Shown in pieces: positions 2 through 12,978 of a stretch of 13,292 nt of DNA (positions within the stretch are counted from its first letter, which is position 1; each line of letters starts with the position of its first letter). The stretch comes from Deltaproteobacteria bacterium (GTDB lineage: Bacteria > Bdellovibrionota_F > JAHFAK01): contig JAHFAK010000065.1 of the NCBI GenBank assembly GCA_023250585.1, positions 1 to 13,292 of the forward strand. Reading direction: 5' to 3'. The position numbers were made by a program, and so were the translations under genes. The notes under the pieces are model-generated. The model saw nothing but the letters and a program-made list of their open reading frames with translations, was not told where the DNA came from and did no database searches.

Positions 2-673
2 GATTTTGCCGGGCCAAATGCATCGATGACTATTGATGCAGGTTCAGATATTCAGGTAAATACATCAATAACAGTAGCAAATTTAACAGTTGCTACAGGT
101 GCTAAGATCAATGCAGATGCAGATGGGTCAAGTGGGAATTCAGGAAGTGGTGCAGGGGCTGGTTTGAACTCAGCTGGAAGATCAGGATCTGGTGGCGGTT
201 ATGGTGGTGCAGGAGGTAATGGCAGACTTAATTATACTATTGGTGGTGGTACTTATGGATCACCATCGGGACCCATTGACCTTGGCAGTGGAGGAGGATT
301 TGGCGATGGGACGAATACTGGGGCTCAAGGTGGAGGAGCGATTCGTATAAATGCAAGCGGCACTATAACTCTTAATGGATCTATTACAGCTAACGGAGGT
401 ACAACAAGTTCTTGTGGTGGGTATGCTAGTAGTGGAGGAGGAGGTTCTGGAGGAAGTATATATGTTACTACTTCTATTTTAAGCGGGAGTGGAACATTTA
501 ATACAAATGGAGGTAGTGCAGTTTCATGTACTTATACTGGAGGCGGTGGCGGGGGAGGAAGAATTGCAATATATTATACCGATAAAAACGGTTTTAGTGG
601 TTCATTGAGTTCGAGTGGAGGAAGCGGCTATAATAATGGATCCACAGGAACTTCAAATTATTATTCTCAATGA
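2..673 (+). CDS. Glycine-rich repeat surface protein, 3' end only
   Basis: The frame is open from the window edge (codon 1 at base 2) to TGA at 671-673, so the start lies outside; the first internal ATG is at 26. The 223 visible residues are dominated by Gly, Ser, Asn and Thr, with few charged residues. At least three approximate repeats are visible: a G-x-I-x-I/Y strand, then a segment ending near L/F-x-G-x-x-x-x-GG, then a poly-Gly turn (GAIRINASG, GGSIYVTTS, GGRIAIYYTD). This suggests a beta-solenoid or filamentous extracellular protein, perhaps an adhesin. Two cysteines (SSCGG and SCTYT) lie in matching places in adjacent repeats. No sorting or anchoring domain is visible. The protein stops abruptly a few residues after a repeat, exactly where the palindrome at 672 begins, so the C-terminus may be truncated. 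Function is inferred only from composition. Confidence 0.7.
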   Translation, partial: DFAGPNASMTIDAGSDIQVNTSITVANLTVATGAKINADADGSSGNSGSGAGAGLNSAGRSGSGGGYGGAGGNGRLNYTIGGGTYGSPSGPIDLGSGGGFGDGTNTGAQGGGAIRINASGTITLNGSITANGGTTSSCGGYASSGGGGSGGSIYVTTSILSGSGTFNTNGGSAVSCTYTGGGGGGGRIAIYYTDKNGFSGSLSSSGGSGYNNGSTGTSNYYSQ

Positions 674-791
674 CTGAAACGTGCCCGGCAACTTTCGGTC
701 GAAAAATCAACCAAAAGGAACTCTCATATTTTAAAATGGGTGTACCTTTTTGTCAGTTTTTCGACCGAAAGTTGCCGGGCACGTTTCAGTC
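672..791. repeat. 120-bp long palindrome between convergent genes (hairpin 1)
   Basis: The outer arms are a perfect 35-bp inverted repeat (672-706 against 757-791, beginning GACTGAAACGTGCCCGGC). Inside them pairing continues imperfectly (AAAAGG against CCTTTTT, then a CAT..TTTT/AAAA..ATG tip), so the whole 120 bp folds on itself. The left end overlaps the TGA stop of the glycine-rich gene by two bases. The right end directly abuts the TAA stop (792-794) of the minus-strand lysine-rich gene. It could act as a bidirectional terminator, since both arms end with A5/T5 toward the loop, or it could be an inserted palindromic element. No flanking target duplication is seen. Confidence 0.9.
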
Positions 792-1220
792 TTACGTAAA
801 AATGCGTTCGAGTTCTTTTTTTGCGAAGTTTTTTCGAAAAAGACCGAGTTTGAATTCGATGTTAACTTTAAGTTTACCAAGCTCATGCGCAATAGCATCA
901 AGAATTTCATAGTCATTAAATTCATGTAATGAAAGAATATGCGCATTGAGTTCTGTAATATGTTCTTTTAGGTGTTGTATTATTAATTGAATTTCTTGAA
1001 TATCTTTTTTGATAATCTTTGCTTTTTTGTTTTTCTTTTTCAAATCTTCAAATTTAGATTGAATGAATGCAATTTTGTCTTGTGATAATTGACGTTGCTC
1101 AGCCATAATACTTCCCGGGCGTATAACTTCTCTCTTTTTTTTCGGTGGAAGTTTCTTCTTCGTAAATTTTTTCATAATTTTTTTTGCTGGTTTTTTTGCT
1201 TTTTTGAATTTCTTAGGCAT
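792..1220 (-). CDS. Small lysine-rich protein with helical C-terminal part, unknown function
   Basis: 142 residues. The first 35 or so are mostly Lys with Pro, Ala and Phe (MPKKFKKAKKPAKK, PPKKKRE), resembling bacterial histone-H1-like or nucleic-acid-binding tails. From about residue 40 (MAEQRQLSQDK) the protein looks alpha-helical and amphipathic, with coiled-coil character (FEDLKKKNKKAK, IQLIIQHLKEHI, LDAIAHELGKL). I do not recognise a family. The ATG sits inside the last codons of proS (8-base overlap), with AAGGAG seven bases upstream, also inside proS, so the two genes are translationally coupled. A shorter start at the internal Met near residue 39 would remove the basic tail, but no good ribosome site supports it. 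The stop abuts hairpin 1. A DNA- or RNA-binding role is inferred from charge alone. Confidence 0.72.
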   Translation of the reverse strand: MPKKFKKAKKPAKKIMKKFTKKKLPPKKKREVIRPGSIMAEQRQLSQDKIAFIQSKFEDLKKKNKKAKIIKKDIQEIQLIIQHLKEHITELNAHILSLHEFNDYEILDAIAHELGKLKVNIEFKLGLFRKNFAKKELERIFT

Positions 1221-2940
1221 GAGATAACTCCTTAGCGATAATAGAATGAATTTTTTCTATAGCTTCAGATAAGGACAGTTCACTGATGTGTTTATCTTTT
1301 CGAATAACTAATTCTACGGTGTTATTTTCAATATATTTTTTTCCAATACGAATGTGAATGGGAATACCAATTAAATCAGCATCCTTAAATTTAAAGCCAG
1401 GACGAAGTTCTCGATCATCATACAGTACGTCGCATTTTGCTTGAAGCAGCTTATGATAGAGCTCTTCTGCGGCACGATTTATTTTTTCTTCTTGTGTGCC
1501 AAGATTGAGGATAATGACTTCAAACGGGGTAACACCCATGGGAAAAATTATTCCATCATTGTCGTGATTTTGTTCAATCGCAGCTTGCGCTGTTCTGCCA
1601 ATTCCAATTCCATAGCAGCCCATAATGGGATGAGTTGGTTTTCCCTGTTTATCTAAAATAGTAAGATTCATATTTTTTGAATATTTTGTGCCAAGTTTAA
1701 AAATTTGGCCGACTTCAATTCCACGTTTGAACATGAGCAATGCACTACATTTTGGACATTTATCTCCTTCAGTGACAATGCGAAGATCAGTATATGTAGG
1801 CTCTTGGAAGTCACGTGTGAAATTTGTATTTTTAAAATGATAATCAGCTTTATTCGCGCCAATGATAAAATTTTTCATGCCAGAGATTGAATAATCAGCA
1901 ATAACTTTACACGTAAGTCCAATTGGTCCAGAAAAACCAACCTGCCCACCGGTGACTTTTTTAATTACTTCTTCTGACGCCATAGTTATTTCATTTGCGC
2001 ATAAATAATTTTTTAATTTAACTTCATTGAGGTTTTGATCCCCACGAATAAGTGCTGCAACAGGTTCATTATCCGCCACATAGATCAGTGTTTTAATAAG
2101 TTCATTCGGTGTTACGTGAAAAAAGCGCGCAACATCTTCGACGGCATGAAGATTTGTCGTCAATACTTCTTCTCGTTGTTTTTCTTCAGTGCCCGTGGAA
2201 TTTTTTTGTACAAATTTTTCTTGAGAGCTTGTCGCTTTTTCTAAATTAGCCGTATAATTACATGTGGGACATGTTACAATAGTATCTTCACCGGTATCAG
2301 CAAGTACATGAAACTCATGCGTTACATCGCCGCCAATGGCACCTGAATCAGCCTCAACTGGACGAAAATTAAGCCCACAGCGAGTGAAAATTCGTGTATA
2401 TGTTGCATGCATAATTTCATAGTGTTCATGAAGTGATGATTCATCGGCATGAAAACTATACGCATCTTTCATGATAAATTCTCGACCACGCATGAGACCA
2501 AACCGTGGCCGAATTTCGTCACGAAATTTTGTCTGAATTTGATATAAGTTAAGTGGTAATTCTTTATATGAACGAATATCTTTGCGAACAAGATCAACAA
2601 TAACTTCTTCGTGTGTAGGACCAAAACAGAAATCACGATTGCTACGGTCTTTAATACGCAGGAGTTCTTTGCCATAAAATTTCCATCGTCCACTTTCTTC
2701 CCAAAGTTCTGCGGGTTGAATAGCAGGAAGCAAAACTTCATGCGCCCCACTGCGATTCATTTCCTCTCGAACAATTGCTTCAACTTTTCGTATAACGCGT
2801 AAACCATAGGGAAGAAGATCATAAATGCCTGCTGCAACTTTACGTATCATGCCCGCACGAATCATAAGTTTGTGACTTATGTTCTCTGCTTCTTTTGGTT
2901 CTTCTTTTAATGTTGGTAAATAATACTGTGAAAATTTCAT
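1213..2940 (-). CDS. proS: Prolyl-tRNA synthetase (bacterial type, with editing insertion)
   Basis: Charges tRNA-Pro with proline in the cytoplasm, using ATP. At 575 residues it matches the usual length of bacterial-type ProRS (about 570). The class II signatures are present in order: motif 1 near residues 63-85 (GAHEVLLPAIQPAELWEESG), the GPTHEEV loop near 107, motif 2 near 138-163 (FRDEIRPRFGLMRGREF), and motif 3 near 437-460 (GCYGIGIGRTAQA, then FPMGVTPFEV). Between motifs 2 and 3, roughly 225-400, lies the YbaK-like insertion that hydrolyses Ala-tRNA-Pro (ELIKTLIYV, ALIRGDQNLNEVKL). The C-terminal part (HIRIGKKYIENNTVELVIRK) is the anticodon-binding domain. The start ATG is followed by the typical MKFSQYYLPTLKE. 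No Shine-Dalgarno is evident. It is first in a unit with the lysine-rich protein and divergent from the symporter gene. Confidence 0.97.
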   Translation of the reverse strand: MKFSQYYLPTLKEEPKEAENISHKLMIRAGMIRKVAAGIYDLLPYGLRVIRKVEAIVREEMNRSGAHEVLLPAIQPAELWEESGRWKFYGKELLRIKDRSNRDFCFGPTHEEVIVDLVRKDIRSYKELPLNLYQIQTKFRDEIRPRFGLMRGREFIMKDAYSFHADESSLHEHYEIMHATYTRIFTRCGLNFRPVEADSGAIGGDVTHEFHVLADTGEDTIVTCPTCNYTANLEKATSSQEKFVQKNSTGTEEKQREEVLTTNLHAVEDVARFFHVTPNELIKTLIYVADNEPVAALIRGDQNLNEVKLKNYLCANEITMASEEVIKKVTGGQVGFSGPIGLTCKVIADYSISGMKNFIIGANKADYHFKNTNFTRDFQEPTYTDLRIVTEGDKCPKCSALLMFKRGIEVGQIFKLGTKYSKNMNLTILDKQGKPTHPIMGCYGIGIGRTAQAAIEQNHDNDGIIFPMGVTPFEVIILNLGTQEEKINRAAEELYHKLLQAKCDVLYDDRELRPGFKFKDADLIGIPIHIRIGKKYIENNTVELVIRKDKHISELSLSEAIEKIHSIIAKELSHA

Positions 2941-2978
2941 TAGATTATTTTACTAAAAATTTTTACTATTAAAAAATC

Positions 2979-3008
2979 ACTATAACCAATACAATAGTGC
3001 TCTTGCAA
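2979..3008 (-). promoter_or_regulatory. Candidate sigma70 promoter for proS
   Basis: Read on the minus strand: TTGCAA (3003-3008, four of six consensus bases), an 18-bp spacer, then TATAGT (2979-2984, five of six). Transcription would start about 30 bases before the proS ATG. Assigned by eye from hexamer match, spacing and position only. Confidence 0.4.
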
Positions 3009-3033
3009 TAAAAAAAGGTAATAGCTGGAGTTA

Positions 3034-3152
3034 TCGAGAAGTGTGTCTAAGTTCTTTTTCTGTTTTCTATCGAGCGCGCTTTCCTGTTCTTAATAGTATT
3101 ATGGAAGCGACGTCGATAGAAAATACAAAAAGAACTTAGACACACTTCTCGA
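3034..3152. repeat. 119-bp long palindrome in the symporter leader (hairpin 2)
   Basis: The outermost 26 bp pair perfectly (3034-3059 against 3127-3152, starting TCGAGAAGTGTGTCTAAG). After a short interruption a further 11-bp run pairs (TTTTCTATCGA, 3063-3073 against 3113-3123), followed by CGCTT(T)CC against GGAAGCG. An AT-rich loop (TGTTCTTAATAGTATTAT) is at the centre. The element lies between divergent proS and the AGCS gene and ends 17 bases before the symporter's Shine-Dalgarno. If the symporter promoter lies to its left, the mRNA leader would carry this long stem; the loop also holds TATTAT-like -10 sequences. Confidence 0.88.
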
Positions 3153-3182
3153 GTCATTTCAATTTTAACAAAGGAGGAATGC

Positions 3183-4508
3183 ATGGAAGACATTTTAAAT
3201 AGTATCAGTAGCTTCATATGGGGTACGCCATTAATTATTTTATTATTTGGAACGCATCTCTTTCTTACCTTTCGTTTGCGTTTTATTCAACGATACATTT
3301 TTAAAGGAATAAAAATTTCCTTCTCAAAGAACAAAGAAGGAGCGGGCGATATTAGCCAATTTGGCGCATTGATGACCGCGCTTGCCGCAACCGTAGGTAC
3401 CGGAAATATCGTTGGCGTTGCAACAGCCGTTGCTGCAGGCGGGCCAGGAGCAGTCCTTTGGATGTGGCTTACCGGTGTTTTTGGTATTGCAACAAAATAT
3501 TCTGAAGCAGTGCTTGCGGTAAAATATCGAGTTACCAAAGAAGATGGAAGTATGGCCGGTGGGCCAATGTATGCTCTTGAGCGTGGACTCAAGCAAAAAT
3601 GGCTTGGTGTTCTTTTTGCTATTTTTACCGCCATTGCAGCATTTGGCATTGGCAATATGGTTCAAGCAAATTCTATTACTAATTTATTACATGAAACACT
3701 CCATATTTCTCCGTGGATTTCAGGAATGGTTATTACGCTCTTGACCGCAATAGTAATTTTAGGAGGAATAAAATCTATTGCAAAAGCTTGTGAATTCTTA
3801 GTGCCATTCATGTGCATTTTTTATGTTCTTGGATGCATCGTTCTTCTTATCCTCAAATATGATACAATTCCTGATACAATTTCTCTCATTCTTACCACCG
3901 CATTTTCTGGGCAAGCAGCCCTTGGTGGATTTTTGGGAGCTTCCATTAAAGAGGCAATGCGCTTTGGAATTGCCCGTGGACTTTTTTCGAATGAATCGGG
4001 GCTTGGAAGTGCGCCAATCGTTGCTGCTGCTGCGCAAACAAAAAATCCAGTGAGGCAAGCATTAGTCTCTTCAACCGGAACATTTTGGGATACGGTTGTT
4101 ATTTGCTTACTTACCGGGCTTGTTATTGTTAATTCTGGATTTTGGAGAGAAGGCCTAACCGGGATCGCATTAACCCATACAGCTTTTTCTGGAATTCCTA
4201 CTATCGGCCCATTGATTTTAGTCGTTGGCCTTGCGACATTTGTATATTCAACAATTCTTGGCTGGGAATATTACGGTGAAAAAGCAATGGAATATCTTTT
4301 TGGATTTAAATCAATTAAAGTGTATCGCGTTTTATGGGTTTTAGGAGTCATGGTTGGCTCGCTTCTTTCTTTGAAATCCGTTTGGGCGTTCGCAGATATT
4401 GCTAATGCGCTTATGGCACTACCAAATTTAATATCCTTAATTTTATTGAATAAAGTAATTATAGAAGAAACAAAAACATATTTGTGGGAGGGGAAAGAAG
4501 CAGTGTAA
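3183..4508 (+). CDS. AGCS-family alanine/glycine:cation (Na+) symporter
   Basis: 441-residue inner-membrane transporter that imports small neutral amino acids (Ala/Gly type), usually coupled to Na+. Family signatures are clear: GDISQFGALMTALAATVGTG near residues 55-75, GPGAVLWMWLTGVFGIATKYSE, EDGSMAGGPMYALERGL, then RGLFSNESGLGSAPIVAAAA near 270-290 with GTFWDTVVICLLTG shortly after. About ten hydrophobic segments alternate with short loops; length is usual for the family. The start has a textbook ribosome site, AAAGGAGG at 3170-3177, five bases before the ATG. It is divergent from proS, with hairpin 2 immediately upstream. A bulged hairpin (4489-4524) overlaps the stop codon. The exact substrate cannot be read from the sequence. 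Confidence 0.95.
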   Translation: MEDILNSISSFIWGTPLIILLFGTHLFLTFRLRFIQRYIFKGIKISFSKNKEGAGDISQFGALMTALAATVGTGNIVGVATAVAAGGPGAVLWMWLTGVFGIATKYSEAVLAVKYRVTKEDGSMAGGPMYALERGLKQKWLGVLFAIFTAIAAFGIGNMVQANSITNLLHETLHISPWISGMVITLLTAIVILGGIKSIAKACEFLVPFMCIFYVLGCIVLLILKYDTIPDTISLILTTAFSGQAALGGFLGASIKEAMRFGIARGLFSNESGLGSAPIVAAAAQTKNPVRQALVSSTGTFWDTVVICLLTGLVIVNSGFWREGLTGIALTHTAFSGIPTIGPLILVVGLATFVYSTILGWEYYGEKAMEYLFGFKSIKVYRVLWVLGVMVGSLLSLKSVWAFADIANALMALPNLISLILLNKVIIEETKTYLWEGKEAV

Positions 4509-4524
4509 ACATTCCTTCTCCCCT
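4489..4524 (+). terminator. Weak terminator-like hairpin at the symporter 3' end
   Basis: AGGGGAAAGAAG (4489-4500) pairs with CTTCTCCCCT (4515-4524), leaving a two-base bulge. The stop codon TAA (4506-4508) sits in the loop. No T tract follows, so factor-independent termination is doubtful. Confidence 0.3.
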
Positions 4525-4584
4525 AACTCACCCCAGAAACTGAGCTATTACAGTGTAGATATATTTCTGCTGGTAATTCGTAGA

Positions 4585-4596
4585 TTAGTATACTAA
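4585..4596. promoter_or_regulatory. 12-bp perfect palindrome overlapping a -10 box upstream of the MNT/HEPN pair
   Basis: TTAGTATACTAA is a perfect palindrome and contains TATACT (4589-4594), a good sigma70 -10 hexamer, 14 bases before the MNT start codon. No strong -35 box is visible. The placement suits an autoregulatory operator, common for two-gene toxin-antitoxin-like units; this is inference. A start site about seven bases downstream would give an almost leaderless mRNA, which agrees with the lack of a Shine-Dalgarno before 4609. Confidence 0.35.
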
Positions 4597-4608
4597 AATA
4601 TTTTTGTT

Positions 4609-4929
4609 ATGAGATTAACTGTCCAGCAAAAAGATGAAATAAAGCAGCAAATCATTACATATTTAACACTATGTAATGAGATCCAAAGAATAGTCATTTT
4701 TGGGTCATTCATAAAATCAGAAAATCCCCATGACCTTGATATCGCTGTTTTTCAAGATAGCTATGAATCTTATTTATCTCTGGCTTTAAAGTATCGCAAA
4801 AGCATGAGAAGCATAGCTCAGAAGATACCTGTTGATGTTATTCCTCTCAAATCAGTGAATAATAAGACTGAGAGTTATTTATTGTCTGAAATTGAATCAG
4901 GGGAGATTATCTATGAAAGAAGATACTGA
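4609..4929 (+). CDS. MNT-type minimal nucleotidyltransferase
   Basis: 106 residues. The polymerase-beta-like active site is intact: IVIFGSF (Gly32-Ser33), DLDIAV with Asp42 and Asp44, and a third acidic residue in PVDVIP (Asp76). Such small MNT proteins pair with HEPN proteins. In characterised pairs the MNT protein is the antitoxin and transfers AMP to the HEPN partner; that role is transferred here by family. The ATG at 4609 has no clear Shine-Dalgarno but follows a palindromic -10 region closely. Its 3' end overlaps the HEPN gene by 17 bases, so the two are translated together. Confidence 0.88.
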   Translation: MRLTVQQKDEIKQQIITYLTLCNEIQRIVIFGSFIKSENPHDLDIAVFQDSYESYLSLALKYRKSMRSIAQKIPVDVIPLKSVNNKTESYLLSEIESGEIIYERRY

Positions 4930-5299
4930 GCGTTGGATTGCCTATGCAGAGGAGAATGTAAGAGCCGCTGAGATACTGAAAGATAATAATCTTTATAATC
5001 CATGCCTTCATAATATACAACAATCTGTAGAAAAGACTCTCAAAGCGTTATTAATCGAAAAAGGGCTTAAACTCAAAAAAACTCATAGTATTAACGAATT
5101 AAAAATTCTTCTTTTTCAAAACAATGTCATCATTGCTCTGTCAGATGATGATATTGAACTTTTGGATTCCATTTATCTCCCCTCAAAATATCCTTTGAGT
5201 AGTGCTTTACCGGATTTCTATCCTGATAAGAACATCTGTCAAACATGTATTGATATTGCTCATCGTGTTTTAGAAGCGGCAAAAAAAATTTTATTTTGA
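4913..5299 (+). CDS. HEPN domain protein, partner of the MNT nucleotidyltransferase
   Basis: 128 residues. The helical HEPN signature is clear: WIAYAEENVRAAEIL at the N-terminus, HNIQQSVEKTLKALLIEKG at about 33-51, KKTHSINEL at 54-62 and KYPLSSALPDFYPD near 90-103, ending in a helix (IAHRVLEAAKKIL). ATG at 4913 is chosen over an upstream in-frame TTG (4892) because AGGGGAG lies seven bases before it. The classical RNase motif R-x4-6-H of HepT-type toxins is not obvious; the closest is KLKKTH. Catalysis is therefore uncertain and the protein may be a substrate- or nucleotide-binding HEPN. It could act in a toxin-antitoxin or stress module. A strong hairpin follows the stop. Confidence 0.87.
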   Translation: MKEDTERWIAYAEENVRAAEILKDNNLYNPCLHNIQQSVEKTLKALLIEKGLKLKKTHSINELKILLFQNNVIIALSDDDIELLDSIYLPSKYPLSSALPDFYPDKNICQTCIDIAHRVLEAAKKILF

Positions 5300-5300
5300 A

Positions 5301-5334
5301 ATGACTAATTTTCCCTAGAGGCAAAATTAGTCAT
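5301..5334. terminator. Hairpin after the HEPN gene, possible terminator
   Basis: A perfect 12-bp stem, ATGACTAATTTT (5301-5312) with AAAATTAGTCAT (5323-5334), closes a 10-base loop in which two further C-G pairs can form. It starts two bases after the HEPN stop. No downstream T run exists on the plus strand, so it may stabilise the 3' end rather than terminate. Confidence 0.5.
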
Positions 5335-5411
5335 AAAGAAAATACGTATTATTTCTGCTGATCGATTTTTAAGTAATATCTTATACTTATTTGACGTCAA
5401 ACAGAGTAAAG

Positions 5412-5484
5412 GCCATTCCGCGGCTTGACCACGGAATCCAGTCTCACAGACTACATGGATCCCGCGATCAAGTCGCGGGATGAC
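5412..5484. repeat. Inverted pair of GC-rich palindromes
   Basis: Two related palindromes face each other. One (5415-5437) is ATTCCGCGG-CTTGA-CCACGGAAT with one mismatched pair. The other (5459-5481) is ATCCCGCGA-TCAAG-TCGCGGGAT with a perfect 9-bp stem. The reverse complement of the second aligns to the first over about 30 bp (CAT-Y-CCGCG-R-CTTGA core), so the 73-bp block is itself an inverted repeat. A small GTCT-CAC-AGAC stem is at 5441-5451, between them. The GC content stands out from the AT-rich surroundings. Similar CCGCG-CTTGA-CGCGG palindromes are known to me as dispersed repeats in alphaproteobacterial genomes, but I cannot confirm the relation. Confidence 0.82.
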
Positions 5485-5502
5485 ACAAAGGAATACTACA
5501 TA

Positions 5503-5526
5503 TTTGATGAAGAATTTGATGAAGAA
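5503..5526 (+). repeat. Two tandem copies of a 12-bp unit
   Basis: TTTGATGAAGAA occurs twice without a gap. As the unit is a multiple of three, the plus-strand frame reads Phe-Asp-Glu-Glu twice and runs to TAA at 5536-5538. That frame is open from 5410 through the palindrome pair but has no ribosome site. Confidence 0.7.
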
Positions 5527-5548
5527 ATAGTATTATAAGCCTCCTGAC

Positions 5549-5623
5549 TTAATCCTTAAAAAGTAAAAAGGTATACAAAAGTGCTCCCATGAATACAATG
5601 GTTTTAATAATATAATTCCACAT
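5549..5623 (-). CDS. 24-residue single-helix membrane peptide
   Basis: A short gene found by eye: ATG at 5621-5623 (minus strand), stop TAA at 5549-5551. The product is hydrophobic with a charged end at each side, starting MWNYIIKTIVFMGALLY and ending in Lys-Asp after a Phe/Leu-rich stretch, so one membrane helix is likely. The main support is the ribosome site, AGGAGGAGA (complement of 5631-5639), seven bases before the ATG, one of the two best in the window. Just upstream is TATACT as a -10, overlapping the interrupted palindrome TATAC-N-GTATA (5639-5649). It could be a small transporter- or stress-associated membrane protein, or a type I toxin-like peptide. Neither role is shown; length and sequence do not identify a family. 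Confidence 0.6.
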   Translation of the reverse strand: MWNYIIKTIVFMGALLYTFLLFKD

Positions 5624-5638
5624 CTGAAACTCTCCTCC

Positions 5639-5649
5639 TATACAGTATA
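5639..5649. promoter_or_regulatory. Interrupted palindrome over the -10 of the 24-residue peptide gene
   Basis: TATAC-A-GTATA is a perfect 5+1+5 inverted repeat that touches the strong ribosome site. On the minus strand it overlaps TATACT (complement of 5644-5649). Its GTATACT core also appears in the palindrome before the MNT gene (4588-4594), so one regulator could see both; weak evidence. Confidence 0.3.
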
Positions 5650-5816
5650 CCATATCTTTTTCTATATTCCTAGCTAGTGTTACATTTTTTCATAGCATGA
5701 TGCTCAATCTCCGTGTATCAGCAGTGGTAGCATTCATAAGCCTTGGCGGATGATATTTATTTTCTTTAGATATCAATAAGTTAAGTTCTTATAAAAGAAT
5801 ATTAAATTCTCTAAAT

Positions 5817-5833
5817 TTGGCATGTAACTTGTA
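5817..5833 (+). promoter_or_regulatory. Sigma54-like (or sigma70 -35) promoter element for the pilus operon
   Basis: TTGGCATGTAACTTGTA matches the sigma54 consensus TTGGCAcG-N4-TTGCA except for T in place of C at two positions, with correct -24/-12 spacing (GG at 5819-5820, TTG at 5829-5831). One mismatch is in the important GC of the -12 box, so the call is tentative. TTGGCA could instead be a sigma70 -35, but no good -10 follows. The start site would be near 5845. The next gene's ribosome site is GGAGGG at 5868-5873. Confidence 0.35.
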
Positions 5834-5879
5834 TTTCTTTTAGTAATGAGAAGAAACGTATATTTCTGGAGGGTTTAGT

Positions 5880-7277
5880 ATGAAGAAATATGGAAGCCTA
5901 TTTTTAGTTATTGTATTCATAATGACGAGCTGCGGAGGTCCATCAAAGCCGAGTTCCAAAGGTGGCTCTACTGGTGGATTTCAACAATCGACACAACCAG
6001 GATTGACACCCGATACTTATAAACCATGTCGTGATAAGCAGTCTCCGGATGACTTAGATGGAGATTGCGTTCGTAATGAAAATGATGCAGATCCTAATGA
6101 TCCAAATGTGGGGCTTAAGCTTCCTGAAAATATCAGTGATATGACTGAAGATGATTGGTCTAAATGGGAAGAGCTGATGAAGGCCTATCAAGAAAATGCG
6201 GGATTAGAACCAGTTGATACATCTGCACTAACTACCATGGCATATCTTGGAATAGGGCTAACCTTAGCAGCCGGTCTCTATGCAGCTTTTACCGGCGATT
6301 CAAAAGGAGTAACCCAAGCAACTCAAAATGCTGCAGATCATCTCGAGAAAGGCCTTACGCAAACTACACAGGCACGAACTGAATATGCAGATAAACTACG
6401 TCAGGAACGTAAGGATGAATTAGAACGTGAGAAAGAATTGTTAGAGAAGATGGACGAGGAAAGAAAATCTACAGAAAAACAAAAAAAATATACAGTATTG
6501 AAAAATACTACCTATAAAGAAGAACCCGCCATCTTTATTGGTACGAGCTTTTTGAATGATAAACCAGTTAATGATAAGGTAAGTTTAAAGCTCTATTTTC
6601 CTACTGATGATCAGCAACAAGGGACAGGCCATGTGTGGGTTAAATATGAAACACAAAGTACGGTAACTATTCAAGATGGAGATCAACCACAATCAGTTAC
6701 TACAAATGATGCTGGAATCATGTTAATTTCGATGTACAAAGATTACAGTCTCATCTTTCAATTCCAATCTGTTGATCTACTCCGACCAGTGGCGGCATAT
6801 GGAGTTCAAATAACTCAACGAGCATGCAGAGAAGGAGAATATGTTAGTGAAAACTTCTGTTCTGATTCAGGTGGACTTACTATAAGTGATGACAAAAAAT
6901 TTTGTGACATAGATAAAAATCAAACATGTAACGAGGCTTTAGTAGCTACTGCTATGAAGTATTTCAGACAAGGGTATGCGGATACCTTTCACTTGCATGC
7001 ATGGGGATATAATTTTGATACGAAAAGCTCTTCTAATGCGATAAGAACTGAGTTTACCAGAGATTCAGATTATAAAGCGAATAATCGACCCGTATGCAAT
7101 GCTTATTATGATAAAGAAAAGGGAATCTATGTTGGTTTTTATGATGAAAAAAATGCACTCTTTACAACCAAAGATGCATATACAAATCAAGGAGTAGAAT
7201 TTTTAGAAGAGAATGAATGTCGGTTTTCAGATACAAATAGTGGAGATGGTAATAATGATACAGAAGTTGCTTTCTAA
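5880..7277 (+). CDS. Lipoprotein A of the pilus operon, with Asp-rich motif and coiled coil
   Basis: 465 residues, not a family I recognise. Visible parts: a lipoprotein signal peptide ending IMTSCGG (lipidated Cys18); a Gly/Ser/Gln linker; an Asp-rich segment at 57-76 (DDLDGDCVRNENDADPNDPN) like a thrombospondin type 3 calcium loop; a hydrophobic helix at about 117-137; a long charged helix at about 145-205 (ELEREKELLEKMDEERK) likely to form a coiled coil; and a C-terminal domain with six cysteines. Start: ATG at 5880, with GGAGGG six bases upstream. It is first in a six-gene operon and its end overlaps the prepilin gene. Residues 117-137 could be a second membrane anchor. A role in pilus assembly, anchoring or outer-membrane attachment is inferred from neighbours only. 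Confidence 0.78.
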   Translation: MKKYGSLFLVIVFIMTSCGGPSKPSSKGGSTGGFQQSTQPGLTPDTYKPCRDKQSPDDLDGDCVRNENDADPNDPNVGLKLPENISDMTEDDWSKWEELMKAYQENAGLEPVDTSALTTMAYLGIGLTLAAGLYAAFTGDSKGVTQATQNAADHLEKGLTQTTQARTEYADKLRQERKDELEREKELLEKMDEERKSTEKQKKYTVLKNTTYKEEPAIFIGTSFLNDKPVNDKVSLKLYFPTDDQQQGTGHVWVKYETQSTVTIQDGDQPQSVTTNDAGIMLISMYKDYSLIFQFQSVDLLRPVAAYGVQITQRACREGEYVSENFCSDSGGLTISDDKKFCDIDKNQTCNEALVATAMKYFRQGYADTFHLHAWGYNFDTKSSSNAIRTEFTRDSDYKANNRPVCNAYYDKEKGIYVGFYDEKNALFTTKDAYTNQGVEFLEENECRFSDTNSGDGNNDTEVAF

Positions 7278-7440
7278 CCGTGGCCAAACAACAACTGAGT
7301 TTGCTCTTGGTTTATTAATATGTCTGATTCTTGCGATTATTTTGAATTCATTTTTTGAATATAAAGAAAACAATAGTCTGACACTGAGTCAGCAAGCATT
7401 TTACAATGTAGAATATACGGTAACAAAACCATATCCATAA
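7255..7440 (+). CDS. Flp-like small prepilin
   Basis: 61 residues. A short basic leader (MIQKLLSNRG) is followed by a perfect type IV prepilin processing site, G|QTTTE with Glu at +5, and a hydrophobic helix (FALGLLICLILAIILNSFF). A short polar tail of about 30 residues follows. Size and motif fit Flp/type IVb pilins, whose leader is removed by the TadV/PilD-type peptidase and which polymerise through the helix. The start is set at ATG 7255 because GGAG (7242-7245) precedes it and the leader is then typical; ATGs at 7213 and 7246 would give an overlong leader. It overlaps lipoprotein A by 23 bases; lipoprotein B follows after three bases. It may be the major pilin or a minor pseudopilin. Confidence 0.8.
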   Translation: MIQKLLSNRGQTTTEFALGLLICLILAIILNSFFEYKENNSLTLSQQAFYNVEYTVTKPYP

Positions 7441-7443
7441 TAT

Positions 7444-8307
7444 ATGAACAAACAAACTATAAAAACATTATTTCTTATTTTCGCGCTTGCAGCCCTTTCG
7501 ACATTTTCGTTAACCTGTGCTGGCGGAGGTAAGAGTGTATCATCGACCGGGGGTAAAGGCGGAAGTGAAGTTGATGAGATTAATGCCCAAGATTCTGACG
7601 GAGATTTTATTCCTGATTATGAGGAAGAACTTTGGGGAACTGATCCAGAAGACCCTAATGATTTTCCTATGGAAGCTGAACAACCTTCAGATGTTGATGA
7701 TCCAGCTTTGCCAAACTTAGATGATACATTTGCAGACGATTTAAATACTCCGAATGGCCAAGACTTACTCGATTACTTGCAATTACTTGCTACAGGTACG
7801 AGTACTATCGCAGGAGTTGCCGGACTTATTCCCGGTAAAGTTGATATTTGTTTTGAACCTGATAGTCCGGGCAATGCAATGAATGGAGATGAGATAGAAT
7901 TGCAAGGCGGACCATTTACGGGAGCGCAAGGATCTACATTAACTTTTAAAGGGAAGAAATTTTCGTTTACCAGTGCAGAAGCAGGATTACCAGGATCTGG
8001 GACATTTTATATTCTTGGACAAAATATTGCCATGGTGAGAGATCCATTTCCTGGATGCATTGAAGTTTTTTCATTGAAGATAATCAGCGAGACATGTATC
8101 TGTCATGAAGAACCTCCTAACTGTCCTGATATTTATGCTCCTCCAAAAACATCGGGGTACATTACCTCATTTAATTTATCGGGAACGAATATCAAGAGTT
8201 TACAAAAATATTCGGATTCATTCACTCGAGTTCCGACAGTTCCATGCACACTCTGTGAATCTACATCAAGCCGAGTACCAAAAACTGAAGGAAAATGTTC
8301 TGAATAA
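7444..8307 (+). CDS. Lipoprotein B of the pilus operon, with Asp-rich calcium-loop-like motif
   Basis: 287 residues. The signal peptide ends at Cys25 (FSLTCAGGG); Thr at -1 is unusual for a lipobox, so lipidation is likely but not certain. Then come a Gly/Ser linker, an Asp-rich stretch at 50-73 (DSDGDFIPDYEEELWGTDPE) resembling a thrombospondin type 3 or dockerin-like calcium loop, a Leu/Ala/Gly-rich hydrophobic stretch at about 108-132, a probable beta-rich domain at about 133-215, and a cysteine-rich tail (TCICHEEPPNC, PCTLCES, GKCSE). The order of parts mirrors lipoprotein A, suggesting paired or distantly duplicated components. There is no ribosome site; the ATG is three bases after the prepilin stop, so translation is probably coupled. 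Exact function unknown. Confidence 0.78.
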   Translation: MNKQTIKTLFLIFALAALSTFSLTCAGGGKSVSSTGGKGGSEVDEINAQDSDGDFIPDYEEELWGTDPEDPNDFPMEAEQPSDVDDPALPNLDDTFADDLNTPNGQDLLDYLQLLATGTSTIAGVAGLIPGKVDICFEPDSPGNAMNGDEIELQGGPFTGAQGSTLTFKGKKFSFTSAEAGLPGSGTFYILGQNIAMVRDPFPGCIEVFSLKIISETCICHEEPPNCPDIYAPPKTSGYITSFNLSGTNIKSLQKYSDSFTRVPTVPCTLCESTSSRVPKTEGKCSE

Positions 8308-8318
8308 AGGGAGAGACA

Positions 8319-8888
8319 ATGCATGCACAAAGAAACACACACCAGAAAGGGCAAACACTCCTTGAACTAACGCTTATTCTTCCCGTCCTGTTTCTTTTCA
8401 TCTATTTCTTCATCGACATGTGTCTCTATATGATTGAACATGATGTGGCCAAATATGCAGCATTCACCGCCAGTCGTTCATATCAAGTCTATGGCAATGC
8501 TAAAATGGAGAATGAAGAAGCACTCGTTTATAAAGAAGCAGGCAAACAAGTTGTAGAGCTTGCAACTCCCATGATTCGCAAAAAAGAAATCGAAATAATT
8601 GCTGATAGCTATTATAAACGTAATCCGGGGGAATTTATGGATCGAACTGAATATGAGCCGCTTGAAAATCGTTATGGATTTAGCAATCAAGGCCTTCTTT
8701 ACCATACGAAAACAGATGAAGAACTTTATAAACCGGCTTTTGGCCTCGTGAAAGTAAAGTATAAACGTGTGCCACTTTTTCTCTCGGGCTTGAGTATTCC
8801 CGGACTCAACAAAGAAGGTTTATTCGACACATTGGAAGTTACGGCTCCGTATAGACTTGAGGAAAGGAAACATGAAGATAGAAGATAG
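8319..8888 (+). CDS. TadE-like pseudopilin (first copy)
   Basis: 189 residues. The N-terminus has the TadE-type arrangement: a short polar leader (MHAQRNTHQKG), a G|QTLLE processing site with Glu at +5, then a hydrophobic helix (LTLILPVLFLFIYFFIDMCLYM, about 17-38). TadE-like proteins are minor pilins required for Flp/Tad pilus assembly and are processed by the prepilin peptidase. The periplasmic remainder is mixed and charged, with no other domain I recognise. ATG 8319 is preceded by AAGGGAG five bases away. The gene follows lipoprotein B after 11 bases and overlaps the TadG-like gene by 17. Its TAG stop (8886-8888) shares its G with the first base of the heptamer palindrome. Confidence 0.85.
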   Translation: MHAQRNTHQKGQTLLELTLILPVLFLFIYFFIDMCLYMIEHDVAKYAAFTASRSYQVYGNAKMENEEALVYKEAGKQVVELATPMIRKKEIEIIADSYYKRNPGEFMDRTEYEPLENRYGFSNQGLLYHTKTDEELYKPAFGLVKVKYKRVPLFLSGLSIPGLNKEGLFDTLEVTAPYRLEERKHEDRR

Positions 8889-10287
8889 GTTAGCGGTTAG
8901 AGGTGAGCGGTTAGCGTCTGAAAATATCTTAAAAGCGCACACCGCACACCGCTCACCTCTAACCAAATTTATTCAAAAAACAAAATCGGAAAATGGCCAA
9001 GTGCTTCCCCTCTACGCTCTCATCGTTGCTACCATGATGATGCTCTGGGCATTTGTAATTAATACAGGCGAGATTGTTTCTCATAAAATTAAAGTGCAAA
9101 CTGCGGCGGATCTTGGAGCATACGCCGGCGCGTCAGTCATGGCATATCATATGGCGAATGATGAAGAGTACTTGGGAGCTTTAAGTGATTCGATCGCCGA
9201 ATTGAATACATATTTAAAAGGAGAATATTACAATCTTATTTCTAATATATCTCTTGCTCAGTGCACAACAAGTGGAATATCTGGGCGAGGGGTTAACTGC
9301 AGTTATTATGATCGAAATGGAGTGTTCTGCGATGTTTCGGGTTATCGCGCACGATATGATCAAATCGATGGAGCGCTGACTTCTTATCGGACTATTGTCA
9401 TTCCTCAAGTTGAAGCCCGATTTATGCGAATCCTCGAAGAGTCCCAGAAACTTGCAAAGAAAAAAGTGATTGAAACCGTTAAGAAAAATATTCCAAATAT
9501 TTCTGAGGAAGAAATTTTTGTCGATATGAAAGATATCGCGAATGATTTTGAGTTATTTGAAAAAAAATTCGTCACTCCATCCTATTATTCTTATAACCTT
9601 AATCCACCTCAATTTACGTGTTATTATGAAACTTCACCTCGGACACTATCACCCATAGAAGTGCCGTATCAGATTGGAATTAAACCATCATTTAGTGGTC
9701 ACGTTGTTGTAGGAATTCTCCAGAAAAGTTTTACCGAAGGAGTTTCTCATAACGATCGTAATGTGGATTACAAACCATCAAATCGTTATATGAATTGGGA
9801 TAAAAGTTTTGGCAAGCATCGCTTTCCTTCATTTGCGGCTTTTAGCGCAGCAGCTCCAATTCGCAATTTAAAAACAATGCGAGACGAATATGAATTATCC
9901 CTGAGCGATACTCTGACCGGTGTTACTGATTATCTGCGACATGTTGAACCCGCAAATGTCAATGCATCTCATGTCCAAGATAATTTAACGTTACCGAATG
10001 AAAAATACTATGACTATGAATCTCTTATGTTTCCAAATCCTGGCCTTGCAGTATGGTTTATTCCATTGGCAAAAGAAAAATTTATTCGCGAGGAAATAGG
10101 CGGCGTAGAAAATAATTATTATGGGGAAGGAAATCCTTTTAAAGGGAAACTTTCTCAAGCAATTTTTACTCATGATTTTAATTTAGGAATTGGCAGTCCT
10201 AAACAAGGATTTCCAGCAATGTATCGAGAAGCATTTAGAAATAAATTACAGGGTGCACAAGATGCATATAAATTATTTTTACATTAG
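8872..10287 (+). CDS. TadG-like protein (N-terminal Tad domain) with palindrome-encoded leader
   Basis: 471 residues. The Tad-domain N-terminal signature is clear: NGQVLPLYAL at 41-50, a membrane helix about 44-64, and VQTAADLGAYAGASVMAYH at 75-93, matching the usual QxAADxAALAGA form. Such proteins occur in Flp/Tad pilus loci and are thought to act with TadE/F in the periplasm. The rest is a large soluble domain with no von Willebrand motif that I can see. ATG 8872 is chosen because GGAAAGGAAAC precedes it and no usable in-frame start lies closer to the helix. This means residues 6-31 or so are encoded by a palindromic element (8888-8964), making the leader about 40 residues, far longer than usual. 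It overlaps the TadE gene by 17 bases. Confidence 0.82.
   Translation: MKIEDRLAVRGERLASENILKAHTAHRSPLTKFIQKTKSENGQVLPLYALIVATMMMLWAFVINTGEIVSHKIKVQTAADLGAYAGASVMAYHMANDEEYLGALSDSIAELNTYLKGEYYNLISNISLAQCTTSGISGRGVNCSYYDRNGVFCDVSGYRARYDQIDGALTSYRTIVIPQVEARFMRILEESQKLAKKKVIETVKKNIPNISEEEIFVDMKDIANDFELFEKKFVTPSYYSYNLNPPQFTCYYETSPRTLSPIEVPYQIGIKPSFSGHVVVGILQKSFTEGVSHNDRNVDYKPSNRYMNWDKSFGKHRFPSFAAFSAAAPIRNLKTMRDEYELSLSDTLTGVTDYLRHVEPANVNASHVQDNLTLPNEKYYDYESLMFPNPGLAVWFIPLAKEKFIREEIGGVENNYYGEGNPFKGKLSQAIFTHDFNLGIGSPKQGFPAMYREAFRNKLQGAQDAYKLFLH
8888..8964. repeat. Heptamer-built palindrome inside the TadG-like coding region
   Basis: A perfect 17-bp inverted repeat, GGTTAGAGGTGAGCGGT (8895-8911) against 8948-8964, extends inward by GCG/CGC. 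Each side consists of four 7-bp units: GGTTAGC, GGTTAGA, GGTGAGC, GGTTAGC on the left and, as reverse complements, GGTTAGA, GGTGAGC, GGTGTGC, GGTGTGC on the right. It lies wholly inside the frame of the TadG-like gene and supplies an arginine/alanine-rich leader segment without introducing a stop. Confidence 0.88.
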
Positions 10288-10289
10288 AC

Positions 10290-10406
10290 GCTTGCGCCTT
10301 TTTCCGAATAGCGGCGTTGGCTACAAAAAAAACTCCTCGGCGTATTATCATATACGTCTGCGTCGTTTTTTTCTTGCCGCCTTGCTCTTCGAAAAAATGC
10401 GCAGGC
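10290..10406. repeat. 117-bp palindrome covering the start of the second TadE-like gene (hairpin 3)
   Basis: The ends pair (GCTTGCGC at 10290-10297 with GCGCAGGC at 10399-10406). Pairing continues imperfectly through TTTTT/AAAAA, CGAA/TTCG, a C/G-rich block and an A7/T7 block to a CGTAT-tatcat-ATACG tip. I estimate about 70 percent of positions pair. It begins three bases after the TadG-like stop codon and contains the ATG (10397) of the following gene. Its length is a multiple of three and the downstream gene's frame is open through it. Confidence 0.75.
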
Positions 10407-10933
10407 TTTTTTTATTCGCTTCACGTTCTTCAGGCCAGGCTGTTCTTGAATTCGTATTCTTCGTACTCTTTCTCATGGTATTCATTTCGGGAGTTTCATT
10501 TACTCATCTTATTTTTCAAGGTTCGAGTGAAGTTAATCTTGTCGCGCGGTCGCGAATTATGGCACGAATGAGTAGCCAAAAATTTGAGATTATTCATGAA
10601 CCAGAATCTGGAAGACAAGAACGTGTGGATAATTCCATTGGATATCGTGATGAAGAGCGAGAAGAAAGAGATCGAGAATATGTTGTTAACGATAGTAATG
10701 AAGCCGATACATCTCACATGGCTGTTATAAAACTTGAGGATCCTGAGCAAACGCTTGAGCAGCGAATCTATGCAAAAACATATGTTGGCTTTGGAAGGAT
10801 AGACGTTCAGGAAAATTCTCCACAAAATATGAGTCTTGATCCTGCTCGCCTTCTTAAAGAACCAAAGGATATTGAAGAATTTATGCAAAGTGAATTTACT
10901 TCAGCTGCCGAAGGATATAAAGGGAACCTCTGA
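10397..10933 (+). CDS. TadE-like pseudopilin (second copy)
   Basis: 178 residues from ATG 10397. A basic leader (MRRLFLFASRSSG), processing site G|QAVLE with Glu at +5, and a hydrophobic helix (FVFFVLFLMVFISGVSFTHLIF) mark a TadE-type minor pilin. The rest is charged, with an Arg/Glu-rich stretch (DEEREERDREY). The chosen start gives an ideal leader length but has no ribosome site and lies in the right arm of a palindrome. An in-frame ATG at 10262 overlaps the TadG-like gene by 26 bases and has GGG eight bases before it; using it would add 45 residues, mostly encoded by the palindrome. The stop (10931-10933) lies inside the next palindrome. Last gene of the operon; convergent with the DUF218 gene. 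Confidence 0.78.
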   Translation: MRRLFLFASRSSGQAVLEFVFFVLFLMVFISGVSFTHLIFQGSSEVNLVARSRIMARMSSQKFEIIHEPESGRQERVDNSIGYRDEEREERDREYVVNDSNEADTSHMAVIKLEDPEQTLEQRIYAKTYVGFGRIDVQENSPQNMSLDPARLLKEPKDIEEFMQSEFTSAAEGYKGNL

Positions 10934-11048
10934 AAAAGGTCCATCTGTGTCGTTGCACACAAATTCACAATCCTCACATACTATCTGAGTATGCTCCGGT
11001 TGTGACTTTGCGTGCGCCTTACATCTGGACCTTTTTGAAAGGTTCCCT
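10921..11048. repeat. 128-bp palindrome at the end of the pilus operon (hairpin 4)
   Basis: AGGGAACCT (10921-10929) pairs with AGGTTCCCT (11040-11048), then AAAAAGGTCCA (10933-10943) with TGGACCTTTTT (11026-11036). Pairing continues inward with bulges (GCAC, CAAA, TCACAA blocks) to a CATACT-atctg-AGTATG tip. The stop codon of the second TadE-like gene (10931-10933) is inside the left arm, so that gene's last few codons belong to the palindrome. It may be a bidirectional terminator between convergent operons. Confidence 0.82.
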
Positions 11049-11073
11049 CAAATGTGAGTTTTTCAGAGAGTCT

Positions 11074-11673
11074 TTAACCGATTAATTCTAACCAAAATTT
11101 ATACCAACTATATTTGATAAATTCTGAAAGTATAATTTTTCGTGAATTGGCATCTTCCCACCAAAGTTCGAGCTGTACATCTGGTGCATTAATTGGATAG
11201 GGATAAATAGTTATATTTTTTGGGAATACTTTTTGAAACATATATAAGGCTCTAACCATATGATAATTTGACGTGAGAAGAATAATTGAATGGTATCCTT
11301 CATTTTGTAGATAGAGAAGACTTTGTTTTGCGTTATCGTAGGTGTTTATGGAACTTTTATCGATAACAATATTTTTGAGCATATCTTCGGGAATATTCAT
11401 CGTAAGAATTTGTAAAATGTCATCAAGGCTCACTTCTTTATTCACACCTGAGAGAAAAAGTTTTTCAGCTTTTCTTGTGTCCAAAAGCTGGAATGATTCT
11501 GGAATTCTTTTACTATCACCGGTTAGGCAAATAATGACATCAGCTCGCGGTGGGTTATGAGGAGCTAATGTTCGGATAGTTTTTACGAATTCATTAAGCA
11601 GATACATTTCAAGAGTAACGATTGATGAAATAAGAAGTAATACAATAAAAAAAGTAAGTTTAAGTTTTCTCAT
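11074..11673 (-). CDS. DUF218 (YdcF/SanA/ElyC-like) membrane protein
   Basis: 199 residues. One N-terminal membrane helix (about 7-27, FFIVLLLISSIVTLEMYLL) is followed by the DUF218 fold: ADVIICLTGDSKRIPESF near 44-61, INTYDNAKQSLLYLQNEG near 108-125 and IILLTSNYHMVRALYMF near 129-145. These match the conserved G-D, E-x-x-N/D and S-x-x-H-M-x-R positions of the family. Family members are linked to envelope and peptidoglycan precursor homeostasis, without a settled reaction. The ATG lies inside the 3' end of the PpiD-like gene (14-base overlap), so both are in one operon. The ORF stops 26 bases outside the palindrome at 10921-11048. Slightly shorter than many relatives. Confidence 0.85.
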   Translation of the reverse strand: MRKLKLTFFIVLLLISSIVTLEMYLLNEFVKTIRTLAPHNPPRADVIICLTGDSKRIPESFQLLDTRKAEKLFLSGVNKEVSLDDILQILTMNIPEDMLKNIVIDKSSINTYDNAKQSLLYLQNEGYHSIILLTSNYHMVRALYMFQKVFPKNITIYPYPINAPDVQLELWWEDANSRKIILSEFIKYSWYKFWLELIG

Positions 11674-12838
11674 TATCTTGGTACATGTATTTTTTTACTG
11701 TTGCATGCTTTTCAAGATTCTTTTTGTAGCTTGTAAAGAAAGAATCCTTTTTTCTTGTTTCTACATAATTTTTACCAAAATAGGTGTCATTTTCTTCTTG
11801 AGGAGCGTCTTCTTTTTTATCTATTAACCATATCAGATAGTGTTTCCCTGAAATTTCTTTTATCTCATTCATGCAAGGATTTTCTTTTGATAACATGAAA
11901 AGATCTTTCATCGTTTCGAAGTCGGTGCCAATTTTTGGAATATAGCCCGAGGGATTACGTCCAAGATAGTCGGTATTTTCTACCGTGAGATTATTCTTCT
12001 TGGCTGCTTTCTGGATCGTTTCAATTTTTTTTGAATTCATGCATTCGGCAAGTAATTCTTTACCAGTATTCTTTGCATATTTTTTCGCTTCGTCTTTTTT
12101 ATAACTTTTTGAAACTTCATCCGCGATGCTATCAAAATTAGGAGTTTGTCCGGTTGGAGTGGTAAAAAATGATGTATGCTCTTTGAAGAATTGTTTAACT
12201 TTAGCGGGATCAACCGTAACTCTATCTTCAAAGCTCGTTGGGTCCAAGGCAATAAAACCAAGTTTTATTTTTTCTTTTTTAAAAGTTGTTTCAAACTCCT
12301 TGTCCTCTGTTCCTAAGAGAACGCTGTTTTTTACAATCCATTCAAGGCGACTCACTCGTAAGTCTTCATATTTTTCTTGTTCAAAAGCTTCGGGAGTTTT
12401 TCGAAAATATGAGCGAACAATATTGATATATTTTTCGTAATCAAATGCGCCTTCTTCATTTTGAAAATAGGGCAATTCTTTAATACTCTCTTTTGTTTCT
12501 GTAGAAGAAATGGGAACCTTAAGCTCTGCTGCTTTTTGTTTCAAAATTATTTCATCAATGAGATTGGTAAATACAATTTTTCGATAGCTCTCTTCATCGG
12601 CTGCGGTGAGGTCTTTTTTAAAGTAGAGGCGCATTTGTTCGCGATACAGATTAAGTTGTTGATCAGCAATAACATGAAAGTTTGCCATTGATATGACTTC
12701 ACCATTTACTTTTGCTGCGACATCTTCATTGCAACCTGAAATTCTTCCGGAACCCCACAGTATAAAAGTTGATGCAAGCACTATCATGAGACCTTTAATC
12801 ATCCATGAACTTGAATAATCGCGTAATTCTTTGAGCAT
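11660..12838 (-). CDS. PpiD/SurA-like membrane-anchored folding factor lacking a visible parvulin domain
   Basis: 392 residues. Architecture: short cytoplasmic N-terminus (MLKELRDYSSSWMIKG), one membrane helix (about 13-31), then a SurA/PpiD-type chaperone domain starting VAAKVNGEVIS near 41 and rich in long helices. The region FDSIADEVSKSYKKDEAKKYA resembles the segment of PpiD-type proteins that returns to the chaperone core. No parvulin signature (R-A-x-H-I-L, G-x-L-G-x-x) is visible, and the protein is much shorter than E. coli PpiD (about 620), so isomerase activity is unlikely. The start is set at 12838 because AGGAGA lies six bases upstream; a longer frame from 12874 would begin inside the palindrome. 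First gene of an operon with DUF218. Probable role: folding of exported proteins, possibly including the surface proteins nearby. Confidence 0.82.
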   Translation of the reverse strand: MLKELRDYSSSWMIKGLMIVLASTFILWGSGRISGCNEDVAAKVNGEVISMANFHVIADQQLNLYREQMRLYFKKDLTAADEESYRKIVFTNLIDEIILKQKAAELKVPISSTETKESIKELPYFQNEEGAFDYEKYINIVRSYFRKTPEAFEQEKYEDLRVSRLEWIVKNSVLLGTEDKEFETTFKKEKIKLGFIALDPTSFEDRVTVDPAKVKQFFKEHTSFFTTPTGQTPNFDSIADEVSKSYKKDEAKKYAKNTGKELLAECMNSKKIETIQKAAKKNNLTVENTDYLGRNPSGYIPKIGTDFETMKDLFMLSKENPCMNEIKEISGKHYLIWLIDKKEDAPQEENDTYFGKNYVETRKKDSFFTSYKKNLEKHATVKKYMYQDNEKT

Positions 12839-12850
12839 ACAGTTTCTCCT

Positions 12851-12978
12851 ATACACAACGCCATAACTTCGCATACCTTCGTTACTCCTCGTCTCGTCAT
12901 TGCAGCGTAACTAAAAGTACGCCTCATTCCTCGACTTCGTCGTGCCTTGGTCTGCTTGCTCGTTCTTGCGTCGTGTAT
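12851..12978. repeat. 128-bp weak palindrome in the PpiD-like leader (hairpin 5)
   Basis: The ends pair (ATACACAACGC at 12851-12861 with GCGTCGTGTAT at 12968-12978, one mismatch), and the centre forms GCGT(A)ACT-aaa-AGTACGC. The part between pairs poorly, so this is the weakest long palindrome of the set. On the minus strand it ends directly at the AGGAGA ribosome site of the PpiD-like gene, and a candidate promoter would start transcription at its far end. Confidence 0.55.

Follow-up and report, generated by a model that had tools for sequence, protein, structure and literature searches.

The window, i.e., the whole 13,292-nucleotide stretch of DNA that was analysed, carries five long palindromes, and hairpin scoring confirmed all five at or very near the coordinates given in a preliminary description. 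The first (672–791), of the CGAAACGTGCCCGGCAACTTTCGGTC family, fills the space separating two convergent ORFs, whose stop codons are at 671–673 and 792–794. The second (3034–3152, forward strand), which belongs to what we call family A, sits between proS and an alanine symporter gene, which are divergently oriented; its core, TATCGAGCGCGCTTTCC...GGAAGCGACGTCGATA (3068–3118, forward strand), forms a bulged stem with an A/T-rich tip, is identical or nearly identical in at least 40 copies genome-wide, and is flanked by private arms at 3034–3067 and 3119–3152 (34 pairs, 2 mismatches). The third (10290–10406), a diverged copy of the family 2 palindrome, follows the stop of a Tad-like ORF and precedes the probable start of the next one, and the fourth (10921–11048), of family C (GGAACCTCTGAAAAAGGTCC...), provides the final codons and the stop of the ORF ending at 10933. 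The fifth (12851–12978), of family D (ATACACAACGCCATAACTTCGC...), is found upstream of a SurA-like gene. A remnant of a family A-carrying MITE, consisting of a single end (CCCTAACTCACCCCAGAAACTGAGCTATTAC) without the core or the other arm, is located at 4520–4552 on the forward strand. At 4609–5299, adjacent small ORFs resemble by eye a pair of a nucleotidyltransferase (GSF...DLDIAVF) and a HEPN protein, which is a common toxin–antitoxin type, and at 5880–10933 there is a one-strand run of lipoprotein-like and TadE/TadG-like genes (Pfam TadE, Tad) with palindromes between the genes. The Tad-like ORF at 8857–10287 contains a further palindrome (GGTTAGAGGTGAGCGGTTAGCG..., 8895–8964), in frame, in its N-terminal region; the repeat type of this palindrome (GGTTAGCGG) is found elsewhere in the genome.

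The window palindromes are real and far above chance. The ungapped hairpin scores of 672–791 and 3034–3152 are 45 and 38, respectively, compared with 15 or less in 20 first-order Markov shuffles of the window; 10921–11048 scores 20 and 10290–10406 scores 15, and the outer arm of 12851–12978 is merely 17 nt long (82%). The wider genome was sampled over 967 kb, i.e., 43% of the 2.24 Mb of an assembly in 164 contigs (96.7% complete). Palindromes are denser in this sample than in shuffled sequence, with 183 hairpins (score at least 15, length at least 50) compared with 16 in second-order Markov shuffles, although the sample is skewed partly to contigs with known family A copies and its densities are not genome averages. 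Scores reach 49 in the real sequence versus a maximum of 18 in the shuffled sequence, and the hairpin length distribution peaks at 110–130 bp.

By BLAST, the 967-kb sample contains 12 places for 672–791, 60 for 3034–3152 (family A), 19 for 10921–11048 (family C), and 18 for 12851–12978 (family D). The palindrome at 10290–10406 falls in a cluster of 17 detected hairpins with paired outermost arms, for which BLAST with the window copy gives just 4 places. The five palindromes, which had been described by eye as not alike in sequence, indeed differ because they represent five different dispersed families, and the alternative raised at that time, that they are single members of several dispersed palindromic families, is right for all five. 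The window palindromes are dispersed, largely intergenic repeat elements; the placement at gene boundaries extends to family A as a whole, where simple ORF calls put 52 of 54 copies between genes or at a contig edge. The single design proposed for them, in which pairing is best at the outside and decays inward, describes the families with paired outer arms and is not equally valid for every family: private co-varying arms are absent from families C and CGAAACGTG. The proposal that long palindromes are kept by structure is supported for families A and B, whose arms match within a copy and differ between copies, and less strongly for several others. The window palindrome at 5414–5482 resembles a family of repeats (ATGGATCCCGCGG...GTCAAGCC) that has 12 sampled copies and in which, unlike in family A, arm mismatches are common to the copies.

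A total of 58 family A copies were examined, 54 of them with arms of 27 bp or more, and 53 were used for pair counts. The core is about 51 bp long, asymmetric, and nearly identical between copies, and that of the window copy has at least 40 further matches elsewhere in the genome. From the core, the arms pair outward for 27–41 bp, mostly 31–34 bp. Within a copy, the two arms mismatch at only 12 of 1756 pairs (53 copies); this count omits a copy near the end of contig L065, in which 7 of 28 pairs mismatch, and becomes 19 of 1784 when that copy is included. The same arm compared between copies, however, has a mean identity of 46% and a median of 42% without gaps, and a median of 55% with gaps. 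Family B, which is smaller (4 copies) and has a different core, exhibits a median own-arm identity of 1.00 versus 0.72 between copies. Arms that match within a copy and differ between copies are not expected of a plain transposed repeat. The earlier expectation of shared sequence in a transposed family breaks down instructively in family A, whose core is common to the copies while the arms alone are not.

The arms follow a loose grammar across copies, beginning on the outside with a purine-rich stretch, which is followed by ATGTTCT or a similar motif and finally by A/T-rich sequence. This common grammar rules out that the arms were taken from the target site. A peptide encoded from the arm, where a purine stretch resembling an SD sequence precedes an ATG, is ruled out as well, the frames and lengths varying between copies. 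Copies that lack MITE ends nevertheless retain a purine-rich 5′ arm, which hints at some constraint. The core stem is bulged, with GAGCGCGC on one side and GCGACGTC on the other, and is imperfect in nearly all copies. In the copies at L097:1089 and L062:6290, the normally asymmetric core stem is now symmetric, one toward each side. Core variants such as TTACCCC and GATCGC are seen with both arm types, which fits exchange between copies, and the core may be either a protein site or homogenised between copies. The family A core gave no match in viral contigs or in 40 relatives.

How the arms change was followed by pair-state parsimony on a tree of 21 alignable copies, itself built partly from the arms, which yielded 47 paired-to-paired changes versus 6 paired-to-unpaired changes. 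The 47 paired changes comprise 26 transversions and 21 transitions, and a G·U intermediate is not open to transversions. Indels are paired as well, e.g., GAATGGTTC/GAACCATTC in the copy at L085:6016 versus the one-G form at L086:2199. One explanation for such co-variation is that each copy is a functional folded RNA or DNA hairpin, such as an RNA regulator or a structure-recognised protein site, whose arms co-vary by compensatory mutation. A conserved tip on a stem conserved only in structure is typical of a functional hairpin family, and the narrow range of arm length (mostly 31–34 bp) and the conserved core point the same way. Compensatory evolution would, however, give many unpaired or G·U states, so that copying at the DNA level would be the simpler reading: only 6 half-way states were found, transversions outnumber transitions among the paired changes, and the 12 arm mismatches show no preference for G·U. 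In addition, a single mismatch in a 33-bp stem should hardly matter to such a hairpin.

The gene context of the copies likewise speaks against a folded functional molecule. Family A copies are found next to divergent, tandem, and convergent genes alike, and the core has the same orientation as the neighbouring genes in 12 cases and the opposite orientation in 11. No Rfam match above the gathering threshold was obtained in the window. An RNA regulator is ruled out by orientation, context, and mismatch type, and the RNase III or structured-RNA processing sites suggested in the preliminary description are not supported, given the same lack of gene orientation, the occurrence in every gene context, the absence of a G·U excess, and the lack of an Rfam match. 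Taken together, we consider a functional hairpin with compensating arms quite unlikely. Integron attC sites were rejected on separate grounds, as the integrase matches lie far below the cut-off (85 vs. 265 bits) and the copies are scattered next to ordinary genes.

Roughly 21 family A copies are located inside a MITE, as indicated by GTAATSSCTCAGTTA-like ends and direct repeats of about 8 bp at the borders, while such end evidence is absent for about half of the family A copies. No pair of these ends 0.3–4 kb apart, which might mark an autonomous partner transposon, was found in the 43% of the genome sampled. These MITE-borne copies provide an internal control for arm copying. On one side only, they contain an extra stretch of about 10 nt between the inner palindrome and the outer ends, and the outer 13-nt terminal inverted repeats beyond this spacer are unmatched, differing at 80 of 273 positions (an upper-range value, as a few alignments are poor) versus 0.7% inside. 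Relative to the one-sided spacer, the core orientation is 10:8, and the copies at L071:3309 and L015:3763, at different loci, have the same arms and core with the core in opposite orientation. The copies at L099:8382 and L018:191 are short deletion derivatives of the family A MITE without the core and one arm; that at L099:8382 is bordered by a direct repeat, suggesting that the ends alone are enough for movement.

The same copies bear on whether the arms are instead regenerated at each transposition: only one arm would move together with the core, hairpin-primed synthesis would supply the second arm, and each insertion would be born perfect. This would explain why perfect arms stand beside an uncorrected, conserved, asymmetric core, and it agrees with the lack of a detectable target duplication in the non-MITE copies (score 2.33 vs. 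2.29 for the null). However, the roughly 21 MITE-borne copies have moved inside a MITE that has its own ends and duplications of about 8 bp, and yet their arms diverge in concert; moreover, the core flips relative to the MITE, and no partner enzyme was found nearby, the four Y1-transposase matches having no adjoining family A palindrome. Regeneration of the arms with each move is regarded as unlikely. It is similarly improbable that family A is a mobile hairpin in which the conserved core is the mobile and recognised part, with arms rewritten at each move or by very frequent copying in place, no fixed terminal sequence, and recognition by shape and core alone.

The perfection of the arms could also originate in the assembly, if near-identical inverted arms had been collapsed by the assembler. 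The assembly is a 164-contig draft, palindromes are hard to assemble, and in several cases a contig ends within a few hundred bases of the copy. With a length of about 33 bp, however, the arms would leave too little matching sequence flanking a mismatch for bubble merging at usual k; in addition, the outer repeats remain different, unpaired differences survive, and the cores retain their asymmetry. Such an artefact is thus highly improbable.

We therefore favour, with a probability of roughly 70%, the reading that the arms of each family A copy (and of family B) are kept identical by copying at the DNA level, most likely by template switching during replication, i.e., quasipalindrome correction. 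The nascent strand would stall after passing the tip of the hairpin and fold back, its 3′ end would copy the arm already made and then return to the template, and a point mutation or indel surviving in one arm would thereby become a paired change. Copying would end where the two sides lose complementarity, and a template switch would occasionally invert the core. Template switching between inverted repeats is reported to lead to arm homogenisation and spacer inversion (PMC8604942; PMC7202029), and the arm homogenisation and core flips of family A match this signature, which supports template switching; it would be the probable process, rather than recombination between the arms. What is expected of quasipalindrome correction, i.e., simultaneous paired changes that include transversions and indels, together with spacer inversion, is what family A exhibits. 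However, the imperfect core stem counts against this reading, since frequent correction might be expected to perfect it. If the 3′ end were obliged to pass the tip first, the core stem would be spared from correction. On the same tree of 21 copies, the arms accumulated 1.61 changes per site compared with 0.58 in the core, which thus evolves about 3 times slower; this is not explained by arm copying alone, and the core would be either selected or homogenised between copies.

The mechanism is already known; what looks new is the architecture, i.e., a conserved core with private matched arms, and how many replicates evolve in parallel alongside an internal control. Quasipalindrome correction by template switching has been described by Ripley 1982, Lovett, and van Noort 2003 (as cited in PMC10434271) and in PMC7202029 and PMC8604942. 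The known cases, in E. coli and yeast, share with family A the arm homogenisation, spacer inversion, and paired multi-base changes, whereas they mostly concern single sites with short arms, in contrast to more than 50 dispersed copies with 27–41-bp arms evolving in parallel beside an uncorrected internal control. The perfect inverted repeats of Nematomorpha mtDNA, for which template switching has been proposed, are also long and almost perfect with arms changing in concert, but they lie in mitochondrial coding genes (PMC6649704), whereas family A is dispersed, intergenic, bacterial, and equipped with a common core. RNA hairpins attributed to template switching similarly combine instant compensatory change with loop inversion, although they were inferred for rRNA and microRNA stems and are mostly short (PMC8794818), whereas family A is a non-genic repeat with much longer arms. 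REPINs, too, are hairpins of about 100 bp scattered between genes, and their changes are paired across the hairpin; REPINs conserve the ends (REP), vary inside, and accompany a RAYT (PMC3116915). Family A is arranged inside-out, with a conserved inside and varying ends, no RAYT with flanking family A copies was found, and the four loci with Y1-transposase matches contain no family A palindrome, which rules out a REPIN/RAYT system. The inverted repeats of MITEs are normally more alike between copies than within a copy. Family A resembles bacterial MITEs in that about 21 copies form part of a unit bounded by GTAATSSCTCAGTTA-like ends and flanked by target duplications of about 8 bp, and it is unlike a typical MITE in that arm identity is higher within a copy than between copies.

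We note that the genome background may be permissive for such palindromes. No match to SbcC was found in this genome, whereas 14 of 14 control genomes have matches; SbcD has a single weak match below the cut-off, and the AAA_23 matches look like RecN, SMC, and RecF upon inspection of their starts. Since SbcCD cleaves long hairpins in E. coli (PMC4245961; PMC3315005), its absence is a plausible reason for the survival and persistence of the palindromes, here a correlation in one incomplete genome. The sole other genome of the class (61% GC) lacks palindromes of this kind over the 386 kb that were read, and no empty sites or orthologous copies were found there or in the 40 relatives. The lineage is isolated, with no close relative for comparing orthologous sites.

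Perfect inverted repeats and co-varying stems are usually taken as a sign of selected structure. Based on the dozens of parallel copies and the uncorrected outer repeat, we argue that DNA-level arm copying alone can give near-perfect co-variation, transversions and indels included, which calls for caution when co-variation in repeats of this kind is read as a sign of RNA function. Family A also offers a natural system in which to measure quasipalindrome correction against mutation: the roughly 0.7% of unpaired positions would imply, under a simple balance, that correction proceeds at roughly 300 times the per-site mutation rate.
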